Source: Sabellastarte sp. h YS-2021
Taxonomy: Eukaryota; Annelida; Polychaeta; Sabellida; Sabellidae
NCBI GenBank assembly: GCA_964017235.1
Contig: OZ024928.1
Coordinates: 84,067,566-84,131,565, forward strand
Length of the DNA: 64,000 bases
Direction: 5' to 3'
Shown here: piece after piece, positions 1-39,500 of the stretch
Layout: each line of letters starts with the position of its first letter
Position numbering within the stretch: position 1 is the stretch's first letter
Made by a program: the position numbers and the translations under genes
Notes under the pieces: model-generated
Databases searched by the model: none
Told to the model about the DNA's origin: nothing
Seen by the model: only the letters and a program-made list of their open reading frames with translations

Positions 1-447
1 ACTTCACTGTGTCTGTAATTGTATGTAACATGACTACATCAATAAATACTGTCTTATTACTGGCTTTTTAATTTTTCAAAAATATGGGTGAGGCAATAGA
101 TTATTCAGATGCCAGATGATAGAACAATACTTAAACCTTTCTTGTTGCCTTCACAAGACTTTGTATCTATCATTATTCAGACACCAGTTCCAAGCTGATA
201 AAATAATACCAGTCTTAAACCTTTGTCTGGATTATGTATCTCTCCTTATCTTGGCTGGTGCAACAAGAATAACAGCTTTAATAAATAAAAGCAGAATTAT
301 TATATAAGGCCAGGTTTCTACTGTATTTGATTCTTTTCCTGTTTTATCTTACTCTCTAGTCTACCTAATTGCTTTCCCTACAAAAAAAAATCTTAATCTT
401 ATCAATGATAGAAAGCTCTGTACAAAGAGGTTATTTATCTGACTCAC

Positions 448-581
448 CCGTCTCCTTGGCCAATGCGGCTTCATGTATAGGTCGTTCACCCTTATTGTTT
501 GGCATCCACATGTCTGCATTGTGAGACTTCAGCAGCTTGATCACATTTTTAGAACCTTTAGCTGCAGCACAGTGAGCTGGT
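448..581 (-). CDS. Ankyrin gene exon 10 (residues 566-611), last exon in window
   Basis: A 134-nt exon, acceptor tttgttacag|AC, donor ACGG|gtgag, ending in phase 1. It encodes TPAHCAAAKGSKNVIKLLKS and GERPIHEAALAKET, one whole repeat and half of another. No further exon could be identified in bases 1-447, so the gene must continue to the left of the window. Confidence 0.9.
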
Positions 582-3500
582 CTGTAACAAACAATGCACA
601 AATTTGTAATTTAACTATACTACAAGTACCGGGTAATATTATTTACATTACGCTCACTTGTGCAAAAAAGTTGTAATTTAACTACATTACAAGTAATGTT
701 ATTTACATAAAGCTCACTTGTGATTCATGTGTTGAACCTAGCTTGAATACTCAGAAAAAATGATTTGCTATTGGGGGGGGTCACACCATTACACTAAGCA
801 ACGAGAAACAAGATGTACTGATATTCTTTAATAGATTAAACATGTGGCCTAGATTTGACGCAAAAGTCATAAAGTTTCAGAAGAACATAAAATAATATAT
901 TTGTTAACCATGCAATTTTCTCAGTACTATTGTATTAATTTTGACACTTCTTAATCTAGTACAGTATAAACTGAATTATGACCAACATGGTCAGAACATA
1001 GAGGTTCTGCAGCATGCTCATAATCAAGTAGTAACACGGCTACATCATTTATCAACTCTTTGAAAAACAGACATGGAATGAAAGTGTCAATATCAATCCT
1101 TGATCAATGAATATGAAATTTAGAAAGGTCAAACATAGTCACTGGGAGGAGGTCGGACTGATAATGTGGAAAGTCTGTCGTGGCAAGTATTTCTAATAAT
1201 GTAATTATACAAATTAATTTCTACCTTTCACACAGATGAGTGTCAAATTATGAATTGGATACTGTAAACTTTGGAAAAGAATAGAGTTTCACCAGACAGG
1301 CTATACTGACAAAAATTTATTTATATAAAAAATTGCTAGTGTGTAGAAGCACGGTCAATGTTCAAAAAATATACTCAAACAAATCTCCTAAAATGTTCTT
1401 CTGGAATAACATGACTGTATGATCAAATGTCATTTTTATAACACTTGCATAAATCCAGATTAAAAAATGCATTCTACCACCAAGATTCAATTTTGACTTT
1501 TTAGTCAATTTATTACAATAATTTAATAGCTCTACTACAATGGGTTTGATTGTATGTATAAAATTTGTACTTACGTCCTGCCCCTGTTATCTTTGTGACT
1601 TGGATTTGCATTTTTCTTCAGTAAAGTTTTGGCACAGTTTTCATGCCCCAGTGTAACTGAATAGAACAGAGGGGTGCAGCCATTCTTGTCTACAGAATCC
1701 ACATTAGCCCCATGTTTCATAAGTAGTTCTACACAGCCAGAATGACCTCTAGAGGCTGCACAGTGCATGGCTGAAAAGGGGAATATTGGAAGAAAATGTT
1801 ATAAATAATAATAAGTTATGATATGATCTACACAGCCAATTATATTAGATAAACATAAAACATATTATGAATAATTTTGCATATCCAAAATGAATTATAG
1901 AAGTTTCACTGTGTAGAGCTAACAATAATATATATTTAAAACCTCTGTTATTCAACCATGAAGGGAGAGTAAAATTTTGTTCTGATAATAGAAAGTTTAT
2001 AAAGGAGAAGAGCTATTTGTGTATAAACTTATATAAACTTAGAAACTTAGGAAAGGGAAAATGAATTAATTTTACACAGCTAGGAGTAGTAGTTTGCATG
2101 GACACATAAATTGCAAATTAATTTCTATGAATTTGGTTCAAAGGAAACAGTGTCCCAATGTAACCAACAGTTATTTCAACAAAGAAATTGCTTTGCCATA
2201 AGACAAAAAAACAACAACAACAACCTTTTGTTTTAACAAATCCATGGATTCTTTATTAGTAACAGTAAAGAGTATTAGGATGACAAAAATAATCAAGCAA
2301 AAAGTTGTTGTCTGTGAACAAAATGAGATCCAATTCATCTGAGCATGTTAACAACTGGAATGAGTATGGTACCTGTAAGTCCATCTTTGTCTGCAGATGA
2401 GGGATTGGCACCAACAGCAATGAGAGCCTCCATTGCATCTTTACTGCCTAAAAATCAATAACACAAATATGTAAACACCTTGTATAGACAGCAAAATAAA
2501 AAGCTCTTATTTCATATATTTTTACGTGAGTTAGCTGCCTGTATCATTAATACTTTACCACCCCATGTCCCTCTACTAAAAACTAAACTAGCTGCCATCT
2601 CTCTTGTCCTAATTCTAATTCTAATTGGACTTTTATAGCGCTTAATCTCCCCAAATAAGAGGACTCTAAGGCGCAACTAAGCAATAAGCAGACATCAAAA
2701 TTTCTGTATCCAGGGGCATAGCAGGGGTCAAGCACCACGGAGAACGCCAGGGGAATGATCCAGGCTAAGGTCCTAGTCTCTTGATTCACCTGTTACTTAA
2801 CTGGTTCTCTTGTATTTAAATGAGCTAATGGCTCATATAAGTATTATTTGAAATGCTCATATACCTGTACTAACCTGGGTTAGCTTCCCACATCACAGAT
2901 GTTTTAGAAGTGTTTACCAGAACCACCTTCCCCATATCCTGAACTAGCTGTCCATGACAACAGTGGTTTACCAGTCGACATGTCTGTATTAACCTGAACT
3001 AGCTGCCTATATCAGAGGGGTTTTCTTGCATTGGTTTGTGCACCCAAAATGTTATTCCTACACATTCCCACACATTTGCATACACCTACACTAACTGCCA
3101 ATACCTATGTTGTTTGACTTGTACATAGTCCTATATTTACCTGCACAATATGAATGGGACTCTTCTCTGTAATTACCTGAGCTAGCTGCCCATATCAGTG
3201 GGGTTCTCTTGTCCTGGTCTCTACAGTCCACATCCACATCTTTCTGTAGCAGTTTTGACAGGATTTTACGTCCCACTTTTGGGTCAGTATCATCCCCTGG
3301 CTTAGCACCACACATCTGTGCAGCATAATGCAGAGCAAAGGCATTGTGGGCATCTGGTCGATTCAGCTTGGCTCCCCGCTCTTGGAGATAGTCTATTAAA
3401 TCTACATGTCCACAAACTGAAAGAATAAAGAAAATTTTAAATGTTTTTTTTATTTTGAAACAGCGACAAAAATAAGCCAATGGCACATGCAACAAGGTTA

Positions 3501-6500
3501 AAATTTGCTTTTGTAACTGGTGCTGTAAACATAAACTATTAGATCAGCAACATGAATGTTAAAGAAACTTGATGGTCATCTGAGTTAATATCACAGCATT
3601 TGATGTCATAACCAGAAGTTTATGGCCAGCTTAACAATTTAGCTGAGAGTTCAAACTTTCAGATATAATGATATCTTCTGGAGATAAATTGATTTAGGTA
3701 GTGTTCACTTATCAAGCCAACTATGCAAAGAGATTCAAGGAGTTTGTCTTTTGTGTTTGAGATTGTTGCTGTCGATCATTCATTTCTCCCATTTAATTGA
3801 TTTGTGAATTACCGCAAGTATGTTGTAAACAGTACTAAATACTACACTCTTAACAAAGCAGTTTTATATAAAGGAGGTTTTTTTTTCATCTGGCATATTA
3901 TTATTTTTAATCATGTATGAAAACAAAAACTTTCAAATATTAAACCAAGTGCAAGTGTTTGTAATTATGGGTGCAGTAAATGATGAACTAGTTTATGTCT
4001 TTCTGATAGTGTCATGAAATGGTAGGTTAGGGTCAACAAATGGCTTTATGACATTATTTACTTTGACTAAATATTTAATCCTCTTACCCTTGTTGGACAT
4101 TAATAACATGTAAATATCAGGCACCATGTACTTTTTGCTTATGACTGTCAATATTTAACTTCAGTAAACAGACAAAAAGTGTCATAAGCCTCTGTTATAT
4201 AGAGATCACAAAAGATACATGTAATTAGTAAACATTGACAATATATAGAACAAACAATCCTGTTTAAAGAAATGCTACAGTTAGATGAGCATATTAAGCT
4301 TTGGATCATTGATTCTTCCAAAACAGATCCCATATACTAAATACAATGAACAATCTATTGGTGTATTGAAAGAGCTTAAGTCTGGATCATTTGACATCAA
4401 ATTTAACTAGAGAAGATCTATTTTTATTGATCTTTACTTCATTATGATATAATTTTATAACAACTAATGCACAATAACTACGGTTGTAAAGGAAATATTA
4501 TTGAGTATGTTAAAATCATTGTATTCAGGATATTGTTCATCATTATACTAGCTGTGAATGTTCAATTTTCAAATATCTATTTGAAATAAATTTTGTGAAT
4601 AAAATAGATAAGGTCACGTTCATCAACGCCATATGTGCAAATTAATGAAAATTTGTGTTGGTAAACATGTAGTTTCCATTTCTTTATAAGTAAATGCAGA
4701 AAACAAATTTACACAACATTTTGTTCCCTCCTTAATTATCAGGATTAGTGCACTCCAAAGCTTTATCACAGAACAGACTCTATATCATACATAAAGGATG
4801 ACATAACACCCACTAATGATTACCTGTGAATTGTTGTTGAAATGTATATTTATACTGAGTGCAATATCTCCCTTTATTACAGGACTCAAAGCTCTATTTG
4901 ACCCATCCGAGCTGCACAAGTACAGACTATGCTCTCGTGTGAGTGACTTTCCTCTAACTGAAAGACAGTCTCAAGGACGACCATTTATCAATGTCCCTAA
5001 GATTCTTTAGCCTGCCACAGGGTTAATTATATAATCCTATTTAACATTAAAACATGTGATATGATATCCATTTTGTTTTCACAACTAGGCCAAATTACTA
5101 TCAGGCTAACTTTCCTAGCCATATATCTTTTGTGCAAATTTGATTAACCAAGCTGCAATATTTCAAGTTTTAGAGCATCTTAATGATTTTGAAATAATTG
5201 GCTATGGTGGCCATTTTGTTTTTCAAAATGAGGCCAAAATTTTTCTCAGGCAAAACATTTGCAGGCCAGGACTTTTCATGGTCTGTGTTTACATTCTGAA
5301 GCCACAGCACCAATAACAAGGGAGGAATAAGGACATTTTAGTGTGATGACCCCATTTAACCTTGAAACAAAGGTCAAATTCAACACCAGGAAAAGATTCC
5401 CAAGCCATGACTTCCTACAAGTTGTTTTCACATTCTGAACCGCTAGGAGCAATATTAGGGGAGATATAAGGCCTTTTTAATAGGATAACCCCATTTGACA
5501 TTAAACATGTGATATGACAGCCATTTTAGTTTTTAGAACTAGGCCAAATTACTATCAGGCTAGCTTTTCTAGCCATATACGTTTTGTGCAAAAATTTGAT
5601 GAAGCTAGCTGGAATATTTCAAGATTTAGAGAACCTTTATGATTTTCAAACAATTGGTATAGTGGCCATTTTATTTTTCAAAATGAGGCCAAAATTTTGC
5701 ACAGACAGGTTTTTATAGCCATAAACATTTCCTGCAAATTTGGTGAAGATATCTGTATAAATGAATGAGATATTAAGGTTTATGTAAAAATGTGACGAAC
5801 GGACGGACTCATGTATGAAATGCGTTTTATAATCTCCCAACCACGGTCTTTGGCTGCTGGTGGGATATAATTATAATTTCTAAATACCACTCACCAGTAG
5901 CCCAGTGAATGGTGTTATGACCTTCATTGTCCAGAATACTAACATCAGCACCATTGTCTATTAGAGTATCAATCATTCTCTTGTTGTTTGCGATCACACT
6001 GAGGTGTAGTGGGGCATAACCTTCATTGTCCTTTTTGTCTAAAAGTGACGGGTCTTTACTGATAACCATCTCTGCTATAACTGGATTGTTGTTTTCAACA
6101 CAGTAATGTAATGCAGTCTTTCCAGAATAATCCTTCACTTTCAGAGCTCCCTGCAAAGTAATTAACATTAGAGAATTGGTCATAAGTGTATAATTTTAAT
6201 TCTTTTATTTAATATACTGACATGTAATACACAATATACAAACACAAGAACAAGAAAAATACAACATTGCCCAGTTTTGAAGGGCTTATAAGCCACTAAT
6301 TAATAAAACTATAGAAAAAGGCCTGCACGTCTTTAGACATCCTCCAGAGATACAGAAAAGTCAGTTTTCATTACAACAAGTCATATTTTTTAATATGGCA
6401 GCAAAACGTTCTATATGGGATAAAACATGTCGGACAAAACCAATGGGAACATTTTTGAGATGTTTGAAGCAAGCCTTGTGGTACTTAGCATCGTATCAGT

Positions 6501-9500
6501 AAAGTTGTATTTTAAAAAATCACCTCTGGCATCCATGTTTTTCTGTCAATTTTGCCCAAAATCAATAGGGTTCCACTAAAAAGTACTATCAATGACTGTA
6601 CAAAGTTTTGAAGACAATCGGTGAAAGCAGTCTGGACTGCACACACAAGCTTTAATATTGGGTGGCAGCCATCTTAAAAACAAGATGGTGGACACAAAAT
6701 TTTTTTTTTGAAACTTGTCCCGCTTGACCCTGAAAATAAATACAGGAAACCTGAACATGATATCTGTAATGGTTTTGCAGCAATGACGTGCTATAGAGTT
6801 GACGAGAGCTGAGTTGGCAAAAATGTCAAAATTTACTATAACAGTCATATTTTTTTACAATATGGCAAAAAATGTTATGTGTGGGATAAAATATGTCGGG
6901 AAAACACAATGGAAACAATTTTTATTAGACATTTGGAGGAAGCCTTGTGGTACTATTAGCATTGCATAGGTAAAGCTGCATTTTACAAAATCGACTCTGA
7001 CCATTTTTTATAATTAATTTTACCCAAAATCAATAGGGTTCCTTCCATGAGTAATATCAATGACAGTACCAAGTTGGAAGACAATCGGTCATAGCAATTT
7101 GGACTTAGAGTGCACACATGGTTTAAAAATGAGTGGTGGCCATCTTGGAAACAAGATGGTGGACGTAAATTTTTTTTCAAAAGTTGTCCCCTTGAAATGA
7201 ACACAGATAACCTGAAGATGATACCTTGAACTGTTTTGCTGTAATGAGGAAAAGTACAAAGTGAAGGGGAAAAATTCTGACGAAACCATAAGGACATCCC
7301 ATTTCATTGGATGTCCTAACAATAATTAACATAGCTAGTGTGAGACAGATTACAATATTACCAGCATTATGCATAAGAAGTCATTTGAATATAATATCTT
7401 AACAAATAGCAACAGTAATTACAATGACACAGTAGAAAATGAAATGTATTCAGTCCTTGAGGTTATAATATTTTTATATTAATCATTTGAGGCACATGTA
7501 CAGATCATACCATTGATTTGATAACATAACAGTACTGTGATTAATTTTACAGAATTGTTGAAATTAACTTTGAAATTTGGTTCAATATTGTATATATACT
7601 TAATGAGTGTGGGCAATATATGCAACCACCTCACCCTATGGCACCAGTTTTTGCTGTAACAGAAAAAAAGGTCATGGGACTACCATGATTGCCAAATACA
7701 GTGCAAAGATTGAAAATATGAATTCAAGAAACTCAATTGCAATGTCAAATTGTTCCATCAATGTTTCAACAGCAAATTACACAAAACTATTAATAAATCG
7801 ATTTCAGGGATTTTTTGTATTGGAGTGTATTGAATGGTAAATAAACATACCATGCATATACAACTCAGTTGACACAAAATAAAGAGAGAAAATTATGGCT
7901 GTAAGTGCAAAGACCCTCCTACTAACACTAAACCTGTAACACATACAGATGAATTAAATCTCCATTTGTTTATCTTGGGAACACTAAATGCATTGATTCA
8001 CAGTGTGTGTTAGTTACAGTGATGAACAGTGTATATTTATTACAACCATGTCTGTCAAGGCCTTTGGTTTGATTTACTTGAAGACCAACAGGAACTGTAT
8101 TTTCAGAGCTTCCTTGTTTCAATGTCACTAATGCTTTGTCAGTAAAGGACATTTCAAGTAAATGTGTAGATTTTTCTAGTATTGGTTTTTTTAGCTGTTA
8201 GCTGCTTTTTCTGATTCAACAATGTTTACACATTAAATATTTTTTCCATCCTATTTAACAATTTTCTGCAAAAGGTATTTTATATGAGTGTGAATGACGG
8301 AAAGTCCTCTTAAATATGTCATTCAATGAAATCAATCTCTTTATGATTATGTAAGCGTCTAATCATTATCCAAACCTTCTCTTTCAGCATTTAATCAATC
8401 ATTATTCTCAAATTTAATAGTTTACAAGCACATACTTAATGCACTTAATATATGTCTTCTAAGTTATGTTTTAAAAGTCATGTCAAAAGTCATGACTGTG
8501 TTCAATTACTTATACAGTGTAGATGTGTTTTGGGCATACATGAGACATAGATATCAGAATATATATTTCACATTCATAAACATGCACTTGTTACAAATTC
8601 TCTTCATGTTTATTTTCCTCAGATTCATATCTACATGTATCTAACTGAGGGACAAAAGGCATTCTTTTCCCCTACACCCATTTCTTCTAAGGCAATACTG
8701 TAAAATTTTGCACACAGTGTTAGAAAGCATCAATGGTATTTGGCCAAGATTAAAATTTCAATTACAAAATACATAAGATGTATATGTTACAGGCAATCTG
8801 TGTAACCAGGCATTACGCGTAATGACTGAACATTTGAGTCATTTCGTGAAATGCCTAAACAGTTTAGCCATTTTGCGGAATGCCTAGGCATTTCATGTAA
8901 TGACTGAAATATAATATAAGGTTAAGTGTTACACAGATTGCCTAAAAATGTATTTGAGATTTCAGGCAATCTGTGTAATCATCTTTTTAAAGTATCTTTT
9001 TTTGATAGAATATGATTATTTCTTGCTATAAACAATTCAAGATATAGTTTTAACTATATTACAATCAACGAAGCTATATTTTGACATACTTCATGCATGT
9101 TTGCATAAGTGAGCAAATAAACAGTTTTGCCACATAATTATTAATAATGACTTTTCATACTTATTCTCATTTTCACTTTTTAGTTCCTCTGATGTTATAT
9201 GGGTGGTGGCTTTTTAATTATATGACATACTTAAACTTTGGTTGGAGATTTCAAGCAGTCTGTGTGGTCCTTTTTAAAAAAAATTTATTGCTATGATGTG
9301 TTATTTCTTGCTGATAGAAACAATTCAAGTTGTAGTTTTAACTGTATGACTTTCAATTAAGGTACATATTGATACTTTTTTTACTTAACTGAATAAATGA
9401 ATGAGCAGTTTTGCAATGCAATAATATTCATATATTCCATATCTCTTTCATTTAGTTGTAAGAAAGGCATCTAATTGTTTTTTTTTTCAAAAGAGTGTGT

Positions 9501-12500
9501 TTTTGGTCTTGTTATGGAGGACTTCTTTAATTACATGAGACATATACTGAAAACTTAATGTTAATGATGAAACAAGCTTAAAATTGCAATTAGGGCCCCC
9601 CCCAAAAGGTATTTTGATATATGAGAATGACGCATTTTATGTCAAAACATTAAAAGAGCTGTATTTTATGTATTTTAGCTTTAAATAACTGATATAATTT
9701 CTTGACAAGGTAGATTACTAGTGCATTACTCAGTTAAACTTTTTAACTGAAATATTAAACTGAGCTATTCAAGAAATATGAAGCTCACAAGAAAGTTCTG
9801 ATACCAAAACACAGTATAAAACAATAATTCAAGGAGCTGAAATTAGTCTTGGTCAATCATGCCACTTTTTCAAAACATTGCTGTTAACATTATTTTGTAT
9901 TTGTATGTGTTATTATGTTTTCTGTATACTTTTTATGGATAGGGATAACAAAACAGTTTGAACAAAATTGAAAATATGTATTTTAATCATAATACCAGTT
10001 TTATTATCATTGTTCATGAATGGACATAAAATATATTCTATTGGTATACAACAAGCAAGGATAAAACTATATAATATCAAAATAATTCATGATAATCATC
10101 AAACATGATAAAAAAACTATGTTCTGGCATTACGTGTAATGCCTAGAGCTCATTTTCAGTCATTACATGAAATGCCTGAACTGTTTAGGCATTTTGCGTA
10201 ATGACTGAAATGACCAGTCATTATGCGTAATGCCTGGTTACACAGATTGCCTGTAACATATACAGTAAATCTGACAAAGTTTAATGAGAAAAGTCTCACC
10301 CCCTTTTCAAGCAAGGCTCTGACATGGTCCACCTCTTCTCTTTGACAGGCCAACATCAAAGCAGTGGCTCCTTCTTCATTCTGTACACACAGAAGATATA
10401 TGTGTAAAAGTTTAATGTGTAACTATTCTATTCTATTCTGTACTTTTATAGCGCTTAATCTCTGCTAAGCAGACTCTAAGGTGCAACACCAAAAATCAAA
10501 TTCAGAAAATCATCTTTCCATAGCCATTGCCAGGTCCAGTACCACGGAGACGCCAGATAGAGTGTATGCTAAGTTGAAAATGCCTTTTTGAAGAGATACG
10601 ATTTTAACCTTTTCCTGAAACAGGCAAGAGTTGGGGCAGAACGGACCTCATCAGGCTGATTCCAAACTGTGGGAGCATCAAAAGCAAAGCTGTGGCTAAC
10701 GTGATTTTTTTTATTTATGTACAGATGGACAGAATTGAGGAACCTCCAAGAACCTTTTATCAGGATGGTTATATCTTCCACTATATATTCCACAACAAGT
10801 AGACAAAAAGGACCAAAATAACTGGGATGACCATTGTGAAGAAACTTGTAAACTAGAGTTGCAGTTTTAAAGATACAGCGAAATTCAACTGGGAGCCAAT
10901 GGAGTCGTTTGAGAATAGGAGATACCCGTGTGTATTTGTTACAGTTTGTAACAATCCTAGCAAGCGTCTTTTGAATACACTGTAGTTTGTGCATGTTGAG
11001 ACTGGATAAACTCCTGAAGAGAGAGTTGCAATAATCAAGGCGACTGGTCACCAAGGCATTGGCTGCCAGGATAGCAGCCTCATCAGTCAAGTGTTTTCTA
11101 ACCTGCCTGAGATTATGAATTTGAATGAAGCATGTCTTAAAAATATTGCGAACAGGATCAGCAAAGGAGAAATTAGCATCAAACCAGACACCAAGGTTCT
11201 TTACAACAACTGCTGGTTGGATAAAATTACCAAATATCCTAACTGGGAGATCTAATTTCTTGAGTTGAGCATGGGATCCAAAGATGATAAACTCTGTTTT
11301 TTCAGGATCTAATTTGAGCATACTTGACGACATCCATTTCTGAACATCCAGAAGACATGAATTCAGTTTGTCAAAAGCCAGGGCTGCATTTTTGTGAGAC
11401 ATATGAATAAACAACTGCGTGTCATCTGCATAAAAGTTGAATTTGATGTCAGGATGCGTTACAATAACCTTACTCAAAGGAGTGGTGTATAAGGAGAACA
11501 GCAGAGGACCAATAACTGAGCCTTGTGGCACTCCAAACAGCAGCTCATGCAACTCAGAGAGGGTTGACCCAATTTTAATTGCTTGGAAACGGTGGCTAAG
11601 ATAGGATTTGAACCATGTCAAGGCTGTACCGCACACACCAAACCATGACTTAAGACAATTAAGAAGAGTAGTGTGGTCAATTGTGTCCAACACAGCCGAC
11701 AGATCCAGTAAGACCAATGCAGTAGGCTCGCCCTGTGATAGTGAGAGATGGATGTAACATTTTGAACATTAGTGACTCTTTTGTGACATAACATAATCAG
11801 CTAGATTTTGACAAGAATTGAAATAGATTGAACAGCAAAAATAGTGATAAAGCATACATACAACTAAAAAACTGTAAGTAAATCTCTAAGTATAATTTCC
11901 TTTTGGGTTCCTGTTGGTAACAGGCCTGGGAAGAAGTTACTGGACACATTGCAAATTCTGAAGGTTTGATCATAAAAGACTTTAATAGAGAGCATTGCAA
12001 TAGTCCAGACGGCTACTTCACAAAGTATTTGCTGCCATGATAGCAGTTTCCTAAGAGAGGTCCCTCAGGTGATGAAGATCCCTCATATGAATAAAAACTA
12101 TAGTCACTCTACAGTTCTAAAATATGTCTCTGTGAACCATGAGACCAGTTATTTTCCGATACCAGTGCCACATTATAATATGCAACACATTCTGCATTGA
12201 GTATTTGCTTAAACGGTGAGAAACTTTTAGTTTATAGTAAGTCAGCACTAGTAATTTGTAGATGACCAGGCACTCATTTAAAGCAGATGAGAGCGACATA
12301 TAAAGTTCAACATGTTCTGCACTGGATATGCTGTGCATTTCAAATAGACAATAACTTCATTGAGGCCAATGTTTGAGAACTTTATAAGGTGTCGCATTTT
12401 TTTCTATTGGACTGGGCATCCATTTGAACTAGATGTTAATCCAACACACAAAATAGTGCGACATACCATAATACATTGTAATGGGAAGCACACTCGTCTT

Positions 12501-30500: not shown

Positions 30501-33500
30501 GTTAACACTGTACCCCCTACCCCCTATAATAAAGTTCATTGCATTAAACATTTGTTGCAGATACCTTTTTTTGGGAGTTATAACCACAATATTGTTTGTT
30601 GTTCAGTATTCATGCACCAACCTATATAGAATAAGTTCATCAACAAAATAAATGACGTATCAGCTAATAAAACTGTGTAGCATTATGTGAGTCTATAAAT
30701 ATTTGCATTAAATTTTGCTGAGGTATTTGTTTTTAATTTTCTTCATATGGGTTGGTGGGGAGCTAAGCACCTGTCACCTCTGAATGAAAACTAAAGATGT
30801 GATGAAATAAAACTTTACACAGAATATTAACATCATTTTAATACAAGTAAAATTTTGCAGTGTCTTTTAAAAAGTGTTTATAGTTAACAATAATGATGAA
30901 ACAATCTTACATTTTTATTTCTGAGAAAATTTTTTTAATTAAAAATTACATTAAAATATTTTCTAATATAATCTGTGCAATTTATAATGCTGTGTAGGAA
31001 TGTTTTATCCTTGTGTATTTCATCTCTTAACATACAGTTTGTTATGCCACATTTTATTCTGTTACATCTGTCGCCTAATGTTTAAGATGTTTGACAGCCA
31101 AATGGAAGGACTAGGGTTTGATTTTTGGCTTGGAAATGGCAATTGTACCAGTTGGAAAGGTACTTTACACATCACAAGTGTCCCTTATTCAAACAAGATA
31201 ATACATGGGTGCCACTACTAGTCAGTGAGGTAAATCTGAAATCAAAGGACTAACATCATGATCTGGGCCCGTATTCACAAAGATTCTTATTCTTAGAATT
31301 AGTCTTATTCTTAGAATTTTTCTTAGAATTGTCATTTTTCTTAGAAAAATTTAAAGAAGAAGAATTTTCCTATTCACAAAGATTCTTATTCTTAGAATTA
31401 TACTTATTCTTAGAATTATTCTAAGAATGGTTTTTATTCTTAGAATTTTTCTACGAATAAGAATTTGCTATTCACAAAACTCTTATTCTTAGAATTTTCT
31501 AAGAATTTTGTTTAAATCTAAGAATGGCACATAGCATGCTTAACTTCAGAAAAATAGTTGTTTCGATGATTGTAGTGGAGCAACTGATTGCAAATCGACA
31601 TTCAGAACAGAGTGTGACATATTAGTTGTCAATGGTGTGTACTGTAACGAAATGCAGCCTCTTTATATTATTTTTAAAAATTCCAGTTTTTTGTTCACAT
31701 AGGCCAAGATCTGTATTCTTAGAATTTTTCTTAGAATTACACTTAGTCTAAGAAAAATTCTAAGAATTGCATACATTTCCTTTTACTTCTATTCTTAGAA
31801 TTATTCTTAGCTAAGAATTGTTTTGTGAATAGGATTTTATTCTAAGAATAAGAAAATTCTTAGCAAAGAATTTTTCTTAGACATAGTGTAATTCTAAGAA
31901 AAATTCTAAGAATCTTTCTGAATACAGACCCTGGACACTTTTGTAAAGTATGATTAACCCGTAATGAAGAGTTCAGTTACCTTTTATTATTAATTAATAA
32001 ATTATTTATTTATTTTATACATATTAATAACATTCGTAACGGTCTGTTTTACCCAGTTCTTGCAGAGTGAAGACATGGTTTTTAAGTGATCAAAAGGATA
32101 CCAGTTTTCTTGTAGTAATAAAAATGTAATACTGGATTATCTATAGCCATCACAATAAATAATATGTATAGAATAGATTAAAAGTTAAAAAGTTCAGGGA
32201 AAAACATAAGAAAGTGTATTAGTAAAGAGTCTTTCTGTGAGAAAAAAACAAATCAATATGTGTGCAATACAGTACACAAGAATATGGAAAATGCATATTG
32301 AAGCCTTTAATTGACAGTGATATTGGAAAGGGCTGGAAGTTTATTTAGACAGTGTGTATACCATATATGGGTGTTGTGGGTTTTGGACACTGATGTGAAA
32401 AGACTTTGTGATTTTTTAAAGATTTAAGGGGTGTGTTTAACAATCATCACATGGTGGCGAATTTGAATTAACACCAAACAAGGTGTCAAATGAATTTTGC
32501 AGCATTACATGTGTTAGGTGGATTTCTTCTATCTTACTCTATAGTGGGAAAAAACAAGGGTTTTGGTGCAAATTACAAAAAAGGTGTTATCAGGGAAAGT
32601 GAAAATGTCACAAGATATAAGGAAATCATTCAGTGATGGAAAAAATAAAATGAGCAAAGGAAGAGTGTCAGATGCAGACAATCAAGCTTCACTGGGATCT
32701 CTGGCAACCCCTGTGACTTCAGCACTGAAGAGATCTAAGTCTAATGCTGACTTATCACCCCCATCACCAGCAATGGATGCTAACATAATGAGTAAAATAA
32801 ATGTAATGATAGACAAAAAAATCCAGCAATGGGGAGATAAACTGGATATTTTGAAACAGGATATTGTGTCAAGTAACCAAGCAAAAATTGATAAACTGCA
32901 AAAAAACTTCAGTGAAACTATTGATGTGAAATTAGATGAGGTCAAGCAAGAAATAAACAAAAGCTGCTCTACTTTTCTTGCTGAAGTCAAGTCTGTAGTT
33001 GGTGAGTTTGACCAAGAAATAAAAGAGCAAAGGGTAGAAATAGTACACTTGAAATCTCAGTTAGAACAAGAAAAACAAAAAAGACTATCATTAGAGGCCT
33101 ATTCAAGGAGAAGTAATCTGAAAGTGATGCATATACCTGAGGATGTGAAACATTTGAGAGACTACATTTTAGACCTTTTCAATAGCGAATCGCCTGTTGT
33201 TTGTGACAGTGATGTGGATCAAGTGCATAGAATTGGCAAATTCAGACAACAGGCACGAACACCCAGACCTGTTATCGTCCGTTTCACGTCAATTAGAACC
33301 AGGATGGCAGTTTGGGAAAAGCGATTACACTACAGAGAGGTTTCTACAGGGAAAACACTTCTAAAAGAAGATATACCCCAAGAGTGGCAAAGTAATAGGC
33401 GCACACTCTGGCCTATTATGATGAAGGCTAGACAGCTTAAAAAGGCAGATGGTACTGGATATAGAGCCAACTTAGTGAGAAATCATCTGATGCTGGACAA

Positions 33501-36500
33501 CAAACCCTTCTCGATTGACGATGTGCCAGATCTTCCAGCAGCACTACAACCAGCAAGTATCTACACGCCCATGAGTGATAACGTTGTGCTGTTTTATACT
33601 CAATATTCACCATTTTCAAATCATCATAGGTGTTCCTTCACGGTAGACAATGTTAAATACAACAGCTCTGAACAGTTTATAATGCAACAAAAAAGCTTGC
33701 TCGCTGGAGACGATGATACAGCCCAGAAGATTATGAGGGAAGTGAGCCCTGTGAAGCAGAAACAGCTGGGAAAGACTATCAAGCACTTCGACAGGAAGCT
33801 ATGGGAGAAAGAAGCCAAATCCCGTGTCAAGGCAGGCATCCGCGCAAAAGTTGTGCAGAATGCTTACATCAAGGACCTGCTGATATCAACGGGAAAAAGA
33901 CGAATCGCAGAAGCCAATCCCTTTGACCGCCTTTTCGCTATTGGATACAGTCTGGAGGACGAACAATCATGGGACATCAAGAACTGGGATAGAGGACAGA
34001 ACATAATGGGAGCCCTCCTCGAGGAGATCAGAGATGAACTCATTGACTGATTGTAAGACAATCTACAGCACCATATCAAAACTGTAACCTGATCTAAAAC
34101 TGATAAAAATAGATATGGATCGACTCTTAGAGATTTTATAGTATTTTTTTATTCATTGTTAAAAGTGTGTCTAGACTTAGAACTACAGGTCAAACAGATG
34201 TTAACGCAAAATAGATTGCTATGTTGATAGTATATTGAATTTCTACCTAAAACTGCTATACAGTGTCTAATTAATAACACAAAGTACATATTGAAAATAT
34301 ATAAAAATAATTAATATGTACTTTACTATGTTTCATTGATTAACTATGTGTGGACATTTTTTAAATTCAGTTACAATTGCTTACAAATTGAATTACATGT
34401 ACTTGTAGTAATAAAACAAATACCGGAATAATGCGGTGCAATATGCCAAATAATATGCATGTCCTATCTACCTAGCTATTTTCATATCCTGATGCATATA
34501 TACTTGGCATAATCAATTTATCTTAAAAATGGTAATTTTGATTTCAAATAGAAACTTTTAGTCCTAAATTAAGAATACCAAGTTATAATAACACCATACA
34601 CATTTCACTCTTTGAATGATAACAAATAGATTACTATCATGTGAAATGGATGTTTTTACAAATAACATGTGTTAGTACATATAAACTAAAAATGCCTTTT
34701 CTGTGTTTTTGCAACAAGGACTAGCAATTTTAGTCAAGTCTTTTATAAAGCAACAGATTTAAAGACAAAATGCTTTTTACCCATCACGTGTTAATTTAAA
34801 ATGACTTATAGCTAATACCACAAGTGAGATATTAACTCACATATGCTGCTTGTTTCCTTTAAGTAAACTATACACGCCTTATGATAAAAAATTCAACTCT
34901 AATGTACCAACTGAAGGTGTAAAAATTAGACAAATTTACACTGTGTGCTCCCATCCGTTGAAAACCTTGGAGATGAGAGTAAATAGGCATCATATTTTCC
35001 CCCCTTTTTTTAAAAAAATATATTGTAAAGTTTAATATCTTCCCATAAGAACACATGTCCTGGGAGTTCTGGGAATTGGGTGTTTATCACCTTTTTGAAT
35101 TATAACTCCTTTTTAAATCACATATCTGCTATAAAAAAATTCTGCAAGAAAATTAAAATTTGATAAATAAAGATGAAAAATTAAATACTGCAAGAAACTG
35201 GAGGCATACCCTTCTTCTTTTTTCTTATGCACATAATGTATTATAGATATCTTGTTACACTGTTGTTTATTTTTGTTTTAATAGAAATTCCACTCCAGGT
35301 AATCAGAGAAAGTATATATTTAAGCTTATTCTGTTCAATATGTTGCGTCGTGCTGCCTGCCATACTTGTTGTTAAGAAAAATAATCGTAGAAGTGCATCC
35401 ATAGGTTCTTTCAGGGACCCACAGTTTATTCGTGTCTATACCAATGTGTAAAGGTAAAAATATTGTGGTGTTGTCGGTAAACTGCCAAGGCCTTCGTACT
35501 CTGTCAAAAAGAATAGATGTGTTAAATTATCTAAAGGATAAAAAACCAGACATATTGTGTCTACAAGACACACATTGGCTAAGTACTGATATTAAAGAAA
35601 TTAAGAAAATTTGGGAAGATAGAATGGCAATAGATCAAACTCGCGTGGTGTGGCAATCCTTTTGGGGAAAAATTTTGAATATAAAATGAGTGAAATAAAG
35701 AGTGACGAAGTAGGCAACATGATCTCAGTTAGTTTGAAAATGGAGCCATTCAGCTTGAAGTTAATAAATGTCTATGGTCCTAATAAAGATTCACCAGATT
35801 TTTACAATACCATTACTGATTGTATGGCATCATCTCAGGATACTTATACAATACTATGCGGAGATTTAAACTTAACCTTAGATCCCAAAAAGGACTGCCA
35901 TAACTATTCTACAATAAACAACCCTAAATCAAGAATGGTCGTTTTAAATACAATGGAAAACTTAAACCTTGCAGATATATATAGAGAGTTGCATCCAGAT
36001 ACCCTGAGATATTTTTGGAGGAGAAAAAACCCTCTGCAACAGGCGCGTCTGGATTATTTTCTAGCATCTTCTACATTAGTAGACATAATAGACAAATGTG
36101 AAATAATACCAGGGTACAGAACAGACCATTCTATAATAAAACTCGCAATAACAGTGTCACAATTTAAACAGGGAAAGGGTATCTGGAAATTTAACACAGC
36201 TCTTTTAAAAAACCAAGAGTATTTGTCCTTAATAAACAATGCTATCAGAGAAGAAATTTGCAAATATGCTTTCCCTATTTATAATCAAAAATTTTTAGAA
36301 ACTGATTACTTAGAAAATGTGGAAATCTCAATAAACGATAGTTTATTTTTGGAAACATTATTATTGAGACTAAGAGGTGAATCAATTAAATTTTCATCAC
36401 GGTTAAAAAAATCAAAACTTGAGAGAGAGCAACTCTTAATGGAAGAAATAGAAAATATAGAAAAAAGTGGAAACACTCAGTCCATGATGCATATTTTAAA

Positions 36501-39500
36501 TGATAAACAAGAAGAATTAGAATCAATAAGGGCTGAAAGAATAAGAGGCCATATGATAAGATGCCGTACCGAATGGTTACAAGAAGGGGAAAAACCCAGT
36601 AAATATTTCTGTTCGTTAGAGAATAGACAGTACACAGAAAAAACCATTAAGTCCATTAGACTTGATGATGGGTCAACGATAACCGATCAAAATAAAATTT
36701 TAAAAGAAGTAAAATCCTTTTATGAGACTCTTTTCAATAATTATGACCACAATCTAGAGATTGAAAATTTAGAAGAACTTTTAGAACCGTATGATTGCAA
36801 TAGATTATCTAAAGAGCAATCACTATGTCTAGAAGGGGAATTAACATTAAAAGAGTTAGGACATTCCCTAAAAATTATGAAGCATGGAAAAACGCCAGGA
36901 ATTGATGGCTTCCCAGCCGAATTTTTTAAAGTTTTCTGGCCATATCTAAAACATATTATAAAGAGAACCATCAACACTAGCTTTGAAAATGGAAAACTTC
37001 CTCTTAGCCTTAGACAATGCATTGTGTCATGCTTACCAAAAGGAAATAAAGACAGAAGTTCTTTAAAGAACTGGCACCCCATATCACTCCTGTCTGTCCC
37101 TTATAAGATAGCATCATCTGCTATAGCTTCAAGATTAAAGACTACATTAGATTACTTAGTGGACAAAACACAAACAGGTTTCATATCAGGCAGATACATT
37201 GGCCACTCAACACGCTTAGTGTACGATATTATGCATTGTACTGAAAAGAACAATATGGATGGCTTATTAATGCTCATAGATTTTGCCAAGGCATATGATT
37301 CCATTTCATGGACATTCCTCTACAATGTACTTAAATTTCTAGGTTTTGGGCAACAATTTATGAAGTGGATTCAATTGTTTAACACTAACATTAAAGCAAC
37401 AGTTCTACAATGTGGCTTTCTCTCAAGTTTTTTCGACATAAAACGAGGTTGTAGGCAGGGTGACCCGTGTGCACCTTTCTTATTTCTTCTCTGTGGCCAA
37501 ATTTTATCAATCCTCGTTACAAATAAAAAAGCTATTAAAGGTATTGTTCTTGGCTCAAAAGAATATAAGATTACTCAGTTCGCCGACGACACCACAATAA
37601 TAATGGATGGGTCCCGAGACTCCTTGGAAGCAGCTTTAAATACAATTGAAATGTTTGGTTCCATGTCTGGCTTGAAAATGAACACTTCAAAAACAAAAAT
37701 CATCTGGATTGGTAGGAAAAGATATAGTAAGGAAAAATTAAATGTTAATCCGAGACTAGAATGGGGCATCACTGACTTTAATATGTTGGGTATAGAATTC
37801 AATGTCGAATTAGACAAAATGCCAAAAATAAATTATGATATTGCAATCTTGCGGTCGAAACATTTACTCAATAGACGGGAAAATAGGTATCTAACACCAT
37901 TCGGCAAGATTACAATAATCAAAACATTTGTGATTTCTAAGTTTAACCATCTCTTTATATCACTGCCTAGTCCAGCCCCAACTACAATTAAGGAGATATC
38001 TAATATCCTATACAAATTTGTATGGGGTAGCAAGACAGATAAAATTGCGAGAAAGCAAATATGCAAAGAACACATAGAAGGAGGGCTTAAAATGATAGAT
38101 CTTCAAAATTTTATCTTGGCCATTAAATCAACTTGGATCAGGCGTCTACTAATTGATCAAAATGCACCATGGGTTCACCTTGCTGCATATATTTTGGGTC
38201 CTTTGAACTACATTACTAATTTTGGTCCCTGTTGGTACAACACATTACCACTAAAGGTGAAAAATCCTTTTTGGCTTGATGTTCTAACAGCTTGGAAAAA
38301 CATTACAGAAACAAAATTCGAGAAACATACCCTGGATATCCTTTACACTCCCCTCTGGTTTAATAACAAAATAGGACAACCGGCATTGTACTACCCAAAG
38401 TGGTACAAAAAAGGTATTCTTTTTGTTGGAGATCTTCTGGATACAAAAGGCAATTTTTGCACATTCAATGAACTTCAAAAAAATTTCAAGTTGGATTCTG
38501 TAAATATACTGGAGTATTATAAAATAAAAAAATTTGTACAGACATTTATAAACAAATGTGGCTGTTCCAATCTGGCCAAACCAATAGGTCCAGGCAGATC
38601 AGCCCATTTGAATATTCTATTGAAGAGCAAGAGCGGCGCTTCTGATATGTATAAAGTATTACACAAAACTGATTTCCAACCAAAGATGAAGCTTAAGTGG
38701 TCAATTGAATTAGGTCAGGATATTGAGGAGAGTAAATGGAGACAGATTTTTAAAGTCTGTTTCAAATTTAAAAGTGATGCCTCACTTACATGGTTTCAAT
38801 ATAGAATTCTTTTTAGGATTATAGGAGTGAGAAAGTATTTAAAATTAACAAAAATTGAAGAATTTAGCACATGCAGACTTTGCACAAACAATGAAGAAAC
38901 CATTTTACATCTTTTTTATAACTGTATCAAAACTAAAGACTTCTGGGAAAATATTTCCAACTGAATGAGAATTAAACTTAAACTGCCGTGGTTTTTTGAC
39001 GAGGAGCAAGTTATGTTTGGGTACCTGTCTAATGATAGAAACGGTGACCAAATAAATTTGTTAATTCTTTGTGCAAAGTGGTACATTTTCCAATGCGCAA
39101 AAAATAATAAAATCTTGAATATTTACAATTTTCAAAAAAAGTACAAGTCAGCCTTTGCTGAACAGATCACACTCTTGAAACTAAAACAAATTGAAAAAAA
39201 TGTGTCACTAAAAAACTGGTTTACATGGGAACCTTTATTTGAGGACATATAGTAAGGAAGTTGTTGGCAAGGCAGCATTCATACCAAATGACAATAACTT
39301 TTTATTATAATAAGAGTATATAATATGCTAATGTGAGTAAACGGAATAATATAAATGTTGGAATAATGCAATAACCTTTATATTGTATACTGATGTATGT
39401 ATATTTTTGGAGTGTAATAAAAATAAATAAATATAAAAAAAAAACATTCGTAACAATGGTCTTTCATCACCATGACACCTACTTTTACACTACATTTAAC

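Follow-up and report, generated by a model that had tools for sequence, protein, structure and literature searches.

The window, by which we mean the whole 64-kb stretch of DNA that was analysed, contains a LINE element of 7.4 kb. The first protein of this element, ORF1, ends in a NADAR domain. The features are as follows.

32029 to 32040, no strand: left target-site duplication, 12 bp, AACATTCGTAAC
32041 to 39442, + strand: LINE element, 7.4 kb, with an A-rich tail at its 3′ end, bounded by the duplication
32605 to 34050, + strand: ORF1, 481 aa, an open frame with disordered N-terminus, coiled coil, RRM, CTD and NADAR (Pfam, PDB and fold matches)
32776 to 33111, + strand: coiled coil, aa 58-169, a single predicted helix in the AlphaFold model
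33112 to 33567, + strand: L1-type RRM and C-terminal domain (CTD), about aa 170-321
33577 to 34047, + strand: NADAR domain, aa 325-481
34051 to 35442, + strand: ORF1-ORF2 spacer, without an ORF of 100 aa
35443 to 38964, + strand: ORF2 with L1-like endonuclease, reverse transcriptase and zinc-binding domain, broken in the window copy
39443 to 39454, no strand: right target-site duplication, 12 bp, identical to the left one

The first-pass annotation had described an element flanked by a target-site duplication, with an ORF1 that runs unbroken from a coiled coil and L1-type RNA-binding region into NADAR. All of this was confirmed. The 12-bp duplication was an exact match between 32029-32040 and 39443-39454, with no third occurrence within the window; the duplication and the A-rich tail are hallmarks of an L1-group LINE. 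ORF1 was one open frame of 481 aa, and its domain order was recovered for the coiled coil in the AlphaFold model and for RRM, CTD and NADAR by Pfam, PDB and fold matches. The start of ORF2 was placed by eye against a sister element, L039. The open part of ORF2 (35650-38961) matched Pfam RVT_1 (2.5e-31) and zf-RVT (1.5e-06), and its match to Exo_endo_phos (0.00037) was below that profile's cut-off. Positions 277-7404 of the LINE were 99.0% identical to another copy, L032.

Two further features lie outside the element. Just 5′ of the LINE, 31272-31913 holds dense direct and inverted repeats rich in TTCTTAGAAT-like units. On the minus strand, 10569-11717 encodes a 382-aa reverse-transcriptase fragment that resembles another, CR1-like LINE.

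In ORF1 the coiled coil is followed by a single RRM and a CTD, the layout of a Type II (L1-type) ORF1 protein. Human LINE-1 ORF1p stops soon after its CTD, whereas NADAR is added in the window ORF1. Up to that point, the two proteins have coiled coil, RRM and CTD in the same order (human structures 2yko, 2ykp and 2w7a). A profile search of ORF1 gave a PF08719 match of 122 bits against the curated cut-off of 35.1; the predicted fold of the domain was YbiA-like and matched, by alignment, an ADP-ribose-bound NADAR structure. These matches, with the retention of the domain in other copies described below, support the proposal made from the first look at the sequence that a LINE ORF1 has captured a NADAR domain.

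A nested insertion private to the window copy was considered for the 1.4-kb spacer and rejected. The 1.5 kb 3′ of ORF1 was 99% identical in two other copies, L003 and L004, so the spacer is part of the family; a spacer of 1.6 kb in the sister family further ruled out such an origin.

We searched the assembly (1.786 Gb, 647 contigs) with ORF1; 89 of 2441 first candidates were scored, and 89 matches were listed. Among the matches listed, 81 extended at least to query residue 440. Of these, 78 also began at residue 250 or earlier, and 62 of the 78 had no internal stop by hand tally. Seventy loci were examined, eight of which (L032-L039) were re-fetches of the same places, leaving 62 distinct places. 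RRM/CTD and NADAR lay in one uninterrupted frame in 64 of the 70 loci, or 56 of the 62 distinct places, counts that are not frequencies because the query contained NADAR and the 62 places taken from the 89 were mostly intact ones. Some of the 56 places hold NADAR only partly (L012, L014 and L017). No uninterrupted frame covered both parts in the other six loci, several of which have internal stops or short matches and look decayed or truncated. The domain is therefore kept in other copies of the family and is not a one-copy read-through.

Some of these copies were informative about the element as a whole. L003, retrieved as the longer stretch L032, shares 99% of the window's ORF1 and lacks the element's first 276 bases, as would be expected of a 5′-truncated LINE insertion. 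The sister copies L033 and L039 differ in their flanks and shared 99.85% identity across 7.9 kb; both have an open ORF1 (483 aa between stops) and an open ORF2 (1304 aa between stops; 1302 aa for the L039 ORF2). The L039 ORF2 matched human L1 ORF2p with an E value of 2.4e-93 over aa 33-938, and matched the Pfam endonuclease (5.4e-11) and reverse transcriptase (7.6e-34) profiles. The AP-type endonuclease and L1-like reverse transcriptase that define the L1 group were thus found in this sister element; ORF2 is broken in the window.

For dN/dS, 49 loci gave 11 pairs with usable dS, of which four disjoint pairs are quoted. When the window's family was compared with its sister, NADAR had a dS of 1.35-1.48, a dN of 0.090 and an omega of 0.06-0.07 (Fisher p 1e-27 and 2e-29), and RRM+CTD had an omega of 0.10-0.11; the two older pairs behind these values are not independent because both compare the same two families. 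In two young pairs the NADAR omega was 0.30 and 0.14, against 0.11 and 0.06 for RRM+CTD. NADAR had the lower omega in two of the four pairs, and it would thus be the most constrained part of ORF1 in the older comparison only. A comparison across copies had been suggested with the original annotation, and it showed NADAR to be under purifying selection. A chance read-through, or a passive and functionless passenger in one copy, was considered as another account of the fusion. We rejected it as highly improbable, given the other copies, the presence of the fusion in many divergent families of this genome and in other sources, and the purifying selection.

The aligned active-site residues of the window NADAR are E356, K363, W400, E436, D441 and F444, with F replacing W at the last position. 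The fold and the aligned E, K, W89, E and D are common to the window domain, the Phytophthora nicotianae NADAR (8bau) and E. coli YbiA (2b3w), whereas F replaces W133 in the window's family. Unlike the window NADAR, 8bau as described in PMC11543638 lies outside any retroelement ORF1. NADAR groups are distinguished by an Asp or a YbiA-type Glu (PMC11125620, PMC11543638). The DarT1-linked (BC4488-type) NADAR antitoxins have Asp for the catalytic Glu in the last strand; this was not the case in the window, where Glu436 aligns with E125, the YbiA-type Glu. The window element is an L1-group LINE, and its Type II ORF1 protein terminates in a YbiA-type NADAR domain that selection has maintained; the fusion is almost certainly genuine and selected.

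The conservation of individual residues was examined with the numbering of the Phytophthora protein. Chain and paper numbering differ by two residues, and with this offset the right residue fell at each position used. For E43, K50 and E125, PMC11543638 describes mutants of the corresponding residues in E. coli C7; it gives K75, R79, Y84, D86, W89, R93, D130 and W133 as ligand contacts or their neighbours. In the 53 loci of this genome with a full NADAR (43 distinct sequences), E43, K50, D130 and W89 were conserved in all 53, E125 in 52 and K75 in 51. Other positions varied: R79 was mostly K (42 loci), with R in 8 loci and S in 3; R93 was R in only 3, and W133 was F in 31 and W in 22. Among 107 'other' NADARs, W133 was W in all 107, E43 was E in 106 and R79 was R in 102; R93 was highly variable there. 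The K50 equivalent was absent in two of the seven full fusions from the protein search described below (T in P0008, C in P0009). In a mapping made here, the W133 position (F444 in the window) matches W346 of SNA-3 by spacing, and W346 was one of the SNA-3 residues chosen for mutation because their YbiA homologues are critical for activity (PMC9303266).

The retained catalytic residues and the low dN/dS would favour an enzyme, and as judged from sequence the ORF1 NADAR is somewhat more likely than not to be a catalytically active hydrolase. The F in place of W133 would speak against simple catalysis. It would fit a domain that serves as a binding or scaffold module, recognising ADP-ribosylated or other partners or stabilising the RNP with little or no catalysis. 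The change to F in 31 of 53 loci and the loss of the K50 equivalent in two of seven full fusions agree with such a role, as does SNA-3, another RNP-linked protein in which NADAR domains work and whose biochemical activity is unknown (PMC9303266). Against it, the E43, E125 and D130 equivalents are nearly invariant. Mutation of catalytic-residue homologues also impairs SNA-3, for which the authors allow a folding effect (PMC9303266). We regard a pure binding role as rather unlikely.

The fusion was also found in other sources. ORF1, searched against 5.8 billion proteins, gave nine clusters, including the window's own; with a profile there were fifteen. RRM/CTD and NADAR were joined in P0002, P0004, P0005, P0007, P0008 and P0009, at 77 to 30% identity. 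NADAR was lost part-way in P0003 and P0006, and P0012-P0015 were ORF1-like proteins without NADAR. An ORF1-type CTD tail preceded NADAR in P0010, P0011, P0016, P0017, P0055, P0058 and P0081 by profile, and in P0057, P0105 and P0114 by eye. Among the seven full fusions, RRM+CTD identity correlated with NADAR identity (Mantel r 0.77, a value reached by 10 of 5040 permutations; Spearman 0.56), which would fit joint inheritance of the two parts. In closer pairs NADAR was more alike than RRM+CTD (for example, 58% vs 34% for P0001/P0005), and in some distant pairs it was less alike (32% vs 41% for P0007/P0009).

NADAR was very abundant genome-wide, with at least 150 places above the Pfam cut-off (150 of 150 scored, from 2705 first candidates). 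A stand-alone NADAR gene of about 160 aa was seen in a different repeat, at 3854-4333 (+) in L074 and 4037-4516 (-) in L075, two loci that were 98-99% identical across the whole 8.5 kb compared. Neither of the adjoining ORFs (490 and 135 aa) reached the cut-off of any Pfam profile. Among the 150 NADAR places, the 38 best had open frames of like size (167-179 aa); L074 and L075 were the ones inspected.

We made two NADAR trees. The first had 128 rows, with P0006 left out as too short. The ORF1 label needed seven changes on it, four of them forced by starred branches. Seven 'other' rows fell within the fusion cluster, and six of these were fragments or fusions: four begin inside NADAR, and two have CTD tails by eye. 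The seventh was P0134. The second tree had 88 rows (53 from this genome, 33 of the earlier 128, 8bau and L074) and needed two changes, one of them forced by starred branches. It placed 17 of 20 stand-alone rows in one group, and 8bau, P0066 and P0134 without resolution among ORF1 rows. A single origin of the ORF1-NADAR fusion is possible on these trees. No donor was found among the stand-alone NADARs in the trees of 128 and 88 rows. A viral source was also considered: no ORF1 relative turned up in two scans of viral contigs, which yielded one NADAR locus, L001, that is outside the trees.

Two families, those of L038 and L076, had the same ORF1 layout with NADAR and an ORF2 that was not L1-like. 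The first is arranged as follows.

L038, 785 to 2119: ORF1-NADAR; 3231 to 6242: Jockey/CR1-type ORF2

The label Jockey/CR1-type comes from reverse-transcriptase similarity and motif reading, not from a tree with named clades. The L038 ORF2 matched L1 ORF2p with an E value of 3.2e-25, against 2.4e-93 for L039, and its main match to the L039 ORF2 was a stretch of 216 residues at 25%. The L076 ORF2, which is split over two frames, was 51% and 46% identical to that of L038 over two stretches. The CR1-like fragment in the window (10569-11717) was closer to L038, at 118 bits against 67. L038 and a second copy, L072, were 99.5% identical over 5.6 kb spanning ORF1-NADAR and ORF2, so the combination moved as a unit; a third copy, L073, matched over 2.6 kb only. 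The NADAR tree put both families (rows L042 and L050) together in a starred group with 15 rows; the loci that had been checked for an L1-like ORF2 fell in a starred group of 28. The two kinds of ORF2 and these tree groups imply that ORF1 was swapped between LINE superfamilies or that NADAR was captured twice. Exchange between LINE superfamilies has been argued for other ORF1s (PMC4120745).

In three other divergent families, an extra ORF lay between ORF1-NADAR and an L1-like ORF2.

L034, with L015, L028 and L029: middle ORF at L034 3445 to 4053, - strand, 202 aa, Pfam E 5.6e-13
L035, with L020, L022, L023 and L027: middle ORF at L035 3716 to 4342, + strand, 208 aa, Pfam E 6.6e-15
L036, with L030, L031 and L037: middle ORF at L036 2996 to 3688, + strand, 230 aa, Pfam E 2e-9

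Pfam called the middle ORF of L034, L035 and L036 a GDSL-like lipase/acylhydrolase (GDSL/SGNH-type), above cut-off in each, and its homologues in the other family members were identified by tblastn. ORF2 was present in L034, L035 and L036, 2-3 kb beyond the middle ORF, a long gap. L037 (minus strand) gave no ORF2 match; tblastn showed parts of its GDSL ORF again at 5463-6013 and 7563-8101 (reversed strand), 3′ of the first copy, perhaps through rearrangement. The spacers of the window copy, L032, L033 and L039 gave no tblastn trace of the GDSL ORF. An added GDSL/SGNH hydrolase is also known from the Type IV (esterase) ORF1 of CR1/L2 LINEs (PMC3905857, PMC4120745) and, as a GDSL ORF3, from LTR and Athena elements of bdelloid rotifers; PMC5408684 describes these separate rotifer ORFs as well as GDSL domains in the ORF1 of CR1, L2 and RTEX. 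In the three families here, unlike Type IV ORF1, GDSL has an ORF of its own, which follows a Type II ORF1 with NADAR and precedes an L1-like ORF2.

A LINE-NADAR fusion is of a kind already noted. According to PMC12477816, which reports NADAR in Pol of Ectocarpus Gypsy LTR elements, the algal Gypsy NADAR gives divergent hits to ORF1 of several Crassostrea gigas Tx1 families in Repbase (the label Tx1 is that paper's for the oyster, and is also used in the first-pass annotation), and these oyster ORF1 proteins appear to hold NADAR, for which RNA processing is suggested. The oyster elements, likened to ours by description only, have NADAR in an animal LINE ORF1 as in the window, and the Ectocarpus elements are likewise retroelements that took up a YbiA-family NADAR. 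The passage on oyster Tx1 tests neither residues nor selection, analyses no copies, and mentions neither a Jockey/CR1-type association nor a GDSL ORF. The main text of a bivalve LINE survey (PMC10294476) does not contain the word NADAR. We found no other report of a LINE-NADAR fusion in the literature searched, which was mostly outside subscription journals. Nor was a Jockey/CR1-type association or a GDSL middle ORF beside a NADAR ORF1 found there, in literature not searched for exactly that combination.

L1 ORF1p multimerises and coats RNA. The window ORF1p may multimerise through its coiled coil and coat the element's RNA in the same way, and since ORF1 proteins of such layout do so, each RNP would be studded with NADAR modules. 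These modules may bind ADP-ribose on guanine in the element's RNA, cDNA or nicked target, and may cut the N-glycosidic bond and free the ADP-ribose, so that template and product would remain copyable. NADARs hydrolyse N2-guanine ADP-ribose (PMC11543638). The best explanation as a whole, to which we give slightly less than an even chance, is that NADAR in ORF1p erases guanine-ADP-ribose from the element's nucleic acid; that the substrate is guanine-ADP-ribose in the element's own nucleic acid is a tentative part of it.

The domain might instead be an N-glycosidase whose substrates are small molecules or RNA ends, namely ADP-ribose phosphates, NAD-derived caps, riboflavin intermediates or RNA-repair by-products; it would then process the RNA intermediate or act in signalling, and erase no base marks. 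According to a proposal in PMC9503650, many viral NADARs, chiefly phage ones, may act on soluble ADP-ribose derivatives or by-products of RNA processing, and processing of transposition RNA is what PMC12477816 suggests. The W133 and R79 changes would also fit a shifted substrate. However, the covalent joining of NADAR to a protein that coats nucleic acid would be needless for small-molecule chemistry, and in vitro hydrolysis of guanine-ADP-ribose is reported for NADARs from several subfamilies (PMC11125620). We consider this alternative improbable on balance.

The most speculative step in the mark-erasing explanation is that the marks would come from host ADP-ribosyltransferases as a defence. 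PMC11209040 reports a guanine-N2 DNA ADP-ribosylation activity, which makes the linkage that NADARs cut, in six species of edible clam, one of them the source of purified CARP-1. Such an activity would be the obvious candidate writer, and the pairing of that writer with this eraser is the core of the hypothesis. The clam work makes both ideas of the first-pass annotation, removal of ADP-ribose from guanine and the countering of a host ADP-ribosylation defence, more concrete. Erasure of CARP-1 marks by NADAR is assumed in PMC11543638 and not confirmed by experiment. Counter-defence against host ADP-ribosylation is, in our judgement, doubtful. A wider scenario would be an arms race between LINEs and host over nucleic-acid ADP-ribosylation, in which the host marks guanines in foreign or reverse-transcribed nucleic acid, something that clam CARP-1-like enzymes can do, the LINE ORF1p carries the eraser, ORF1 has passed between L1-like and Jockey/CR1-like LINEs, and the GDSL ORF cooperates in some families; we think this scenario unlikely as a whole.

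Joined to the protein that packages the RNA of LINEs active in the recent past, an enzyme domain of the ADP-ribose system would give a handle on the role of animal NADARs and on whether nucleic-acid ADP-ribosylation restrains transposable elements. The occurrence of one ORF1 type ahead of two different kinds of ORF2 would also add to the reticulate evolution described for the ORF1s of LINEs (PMC4120745).
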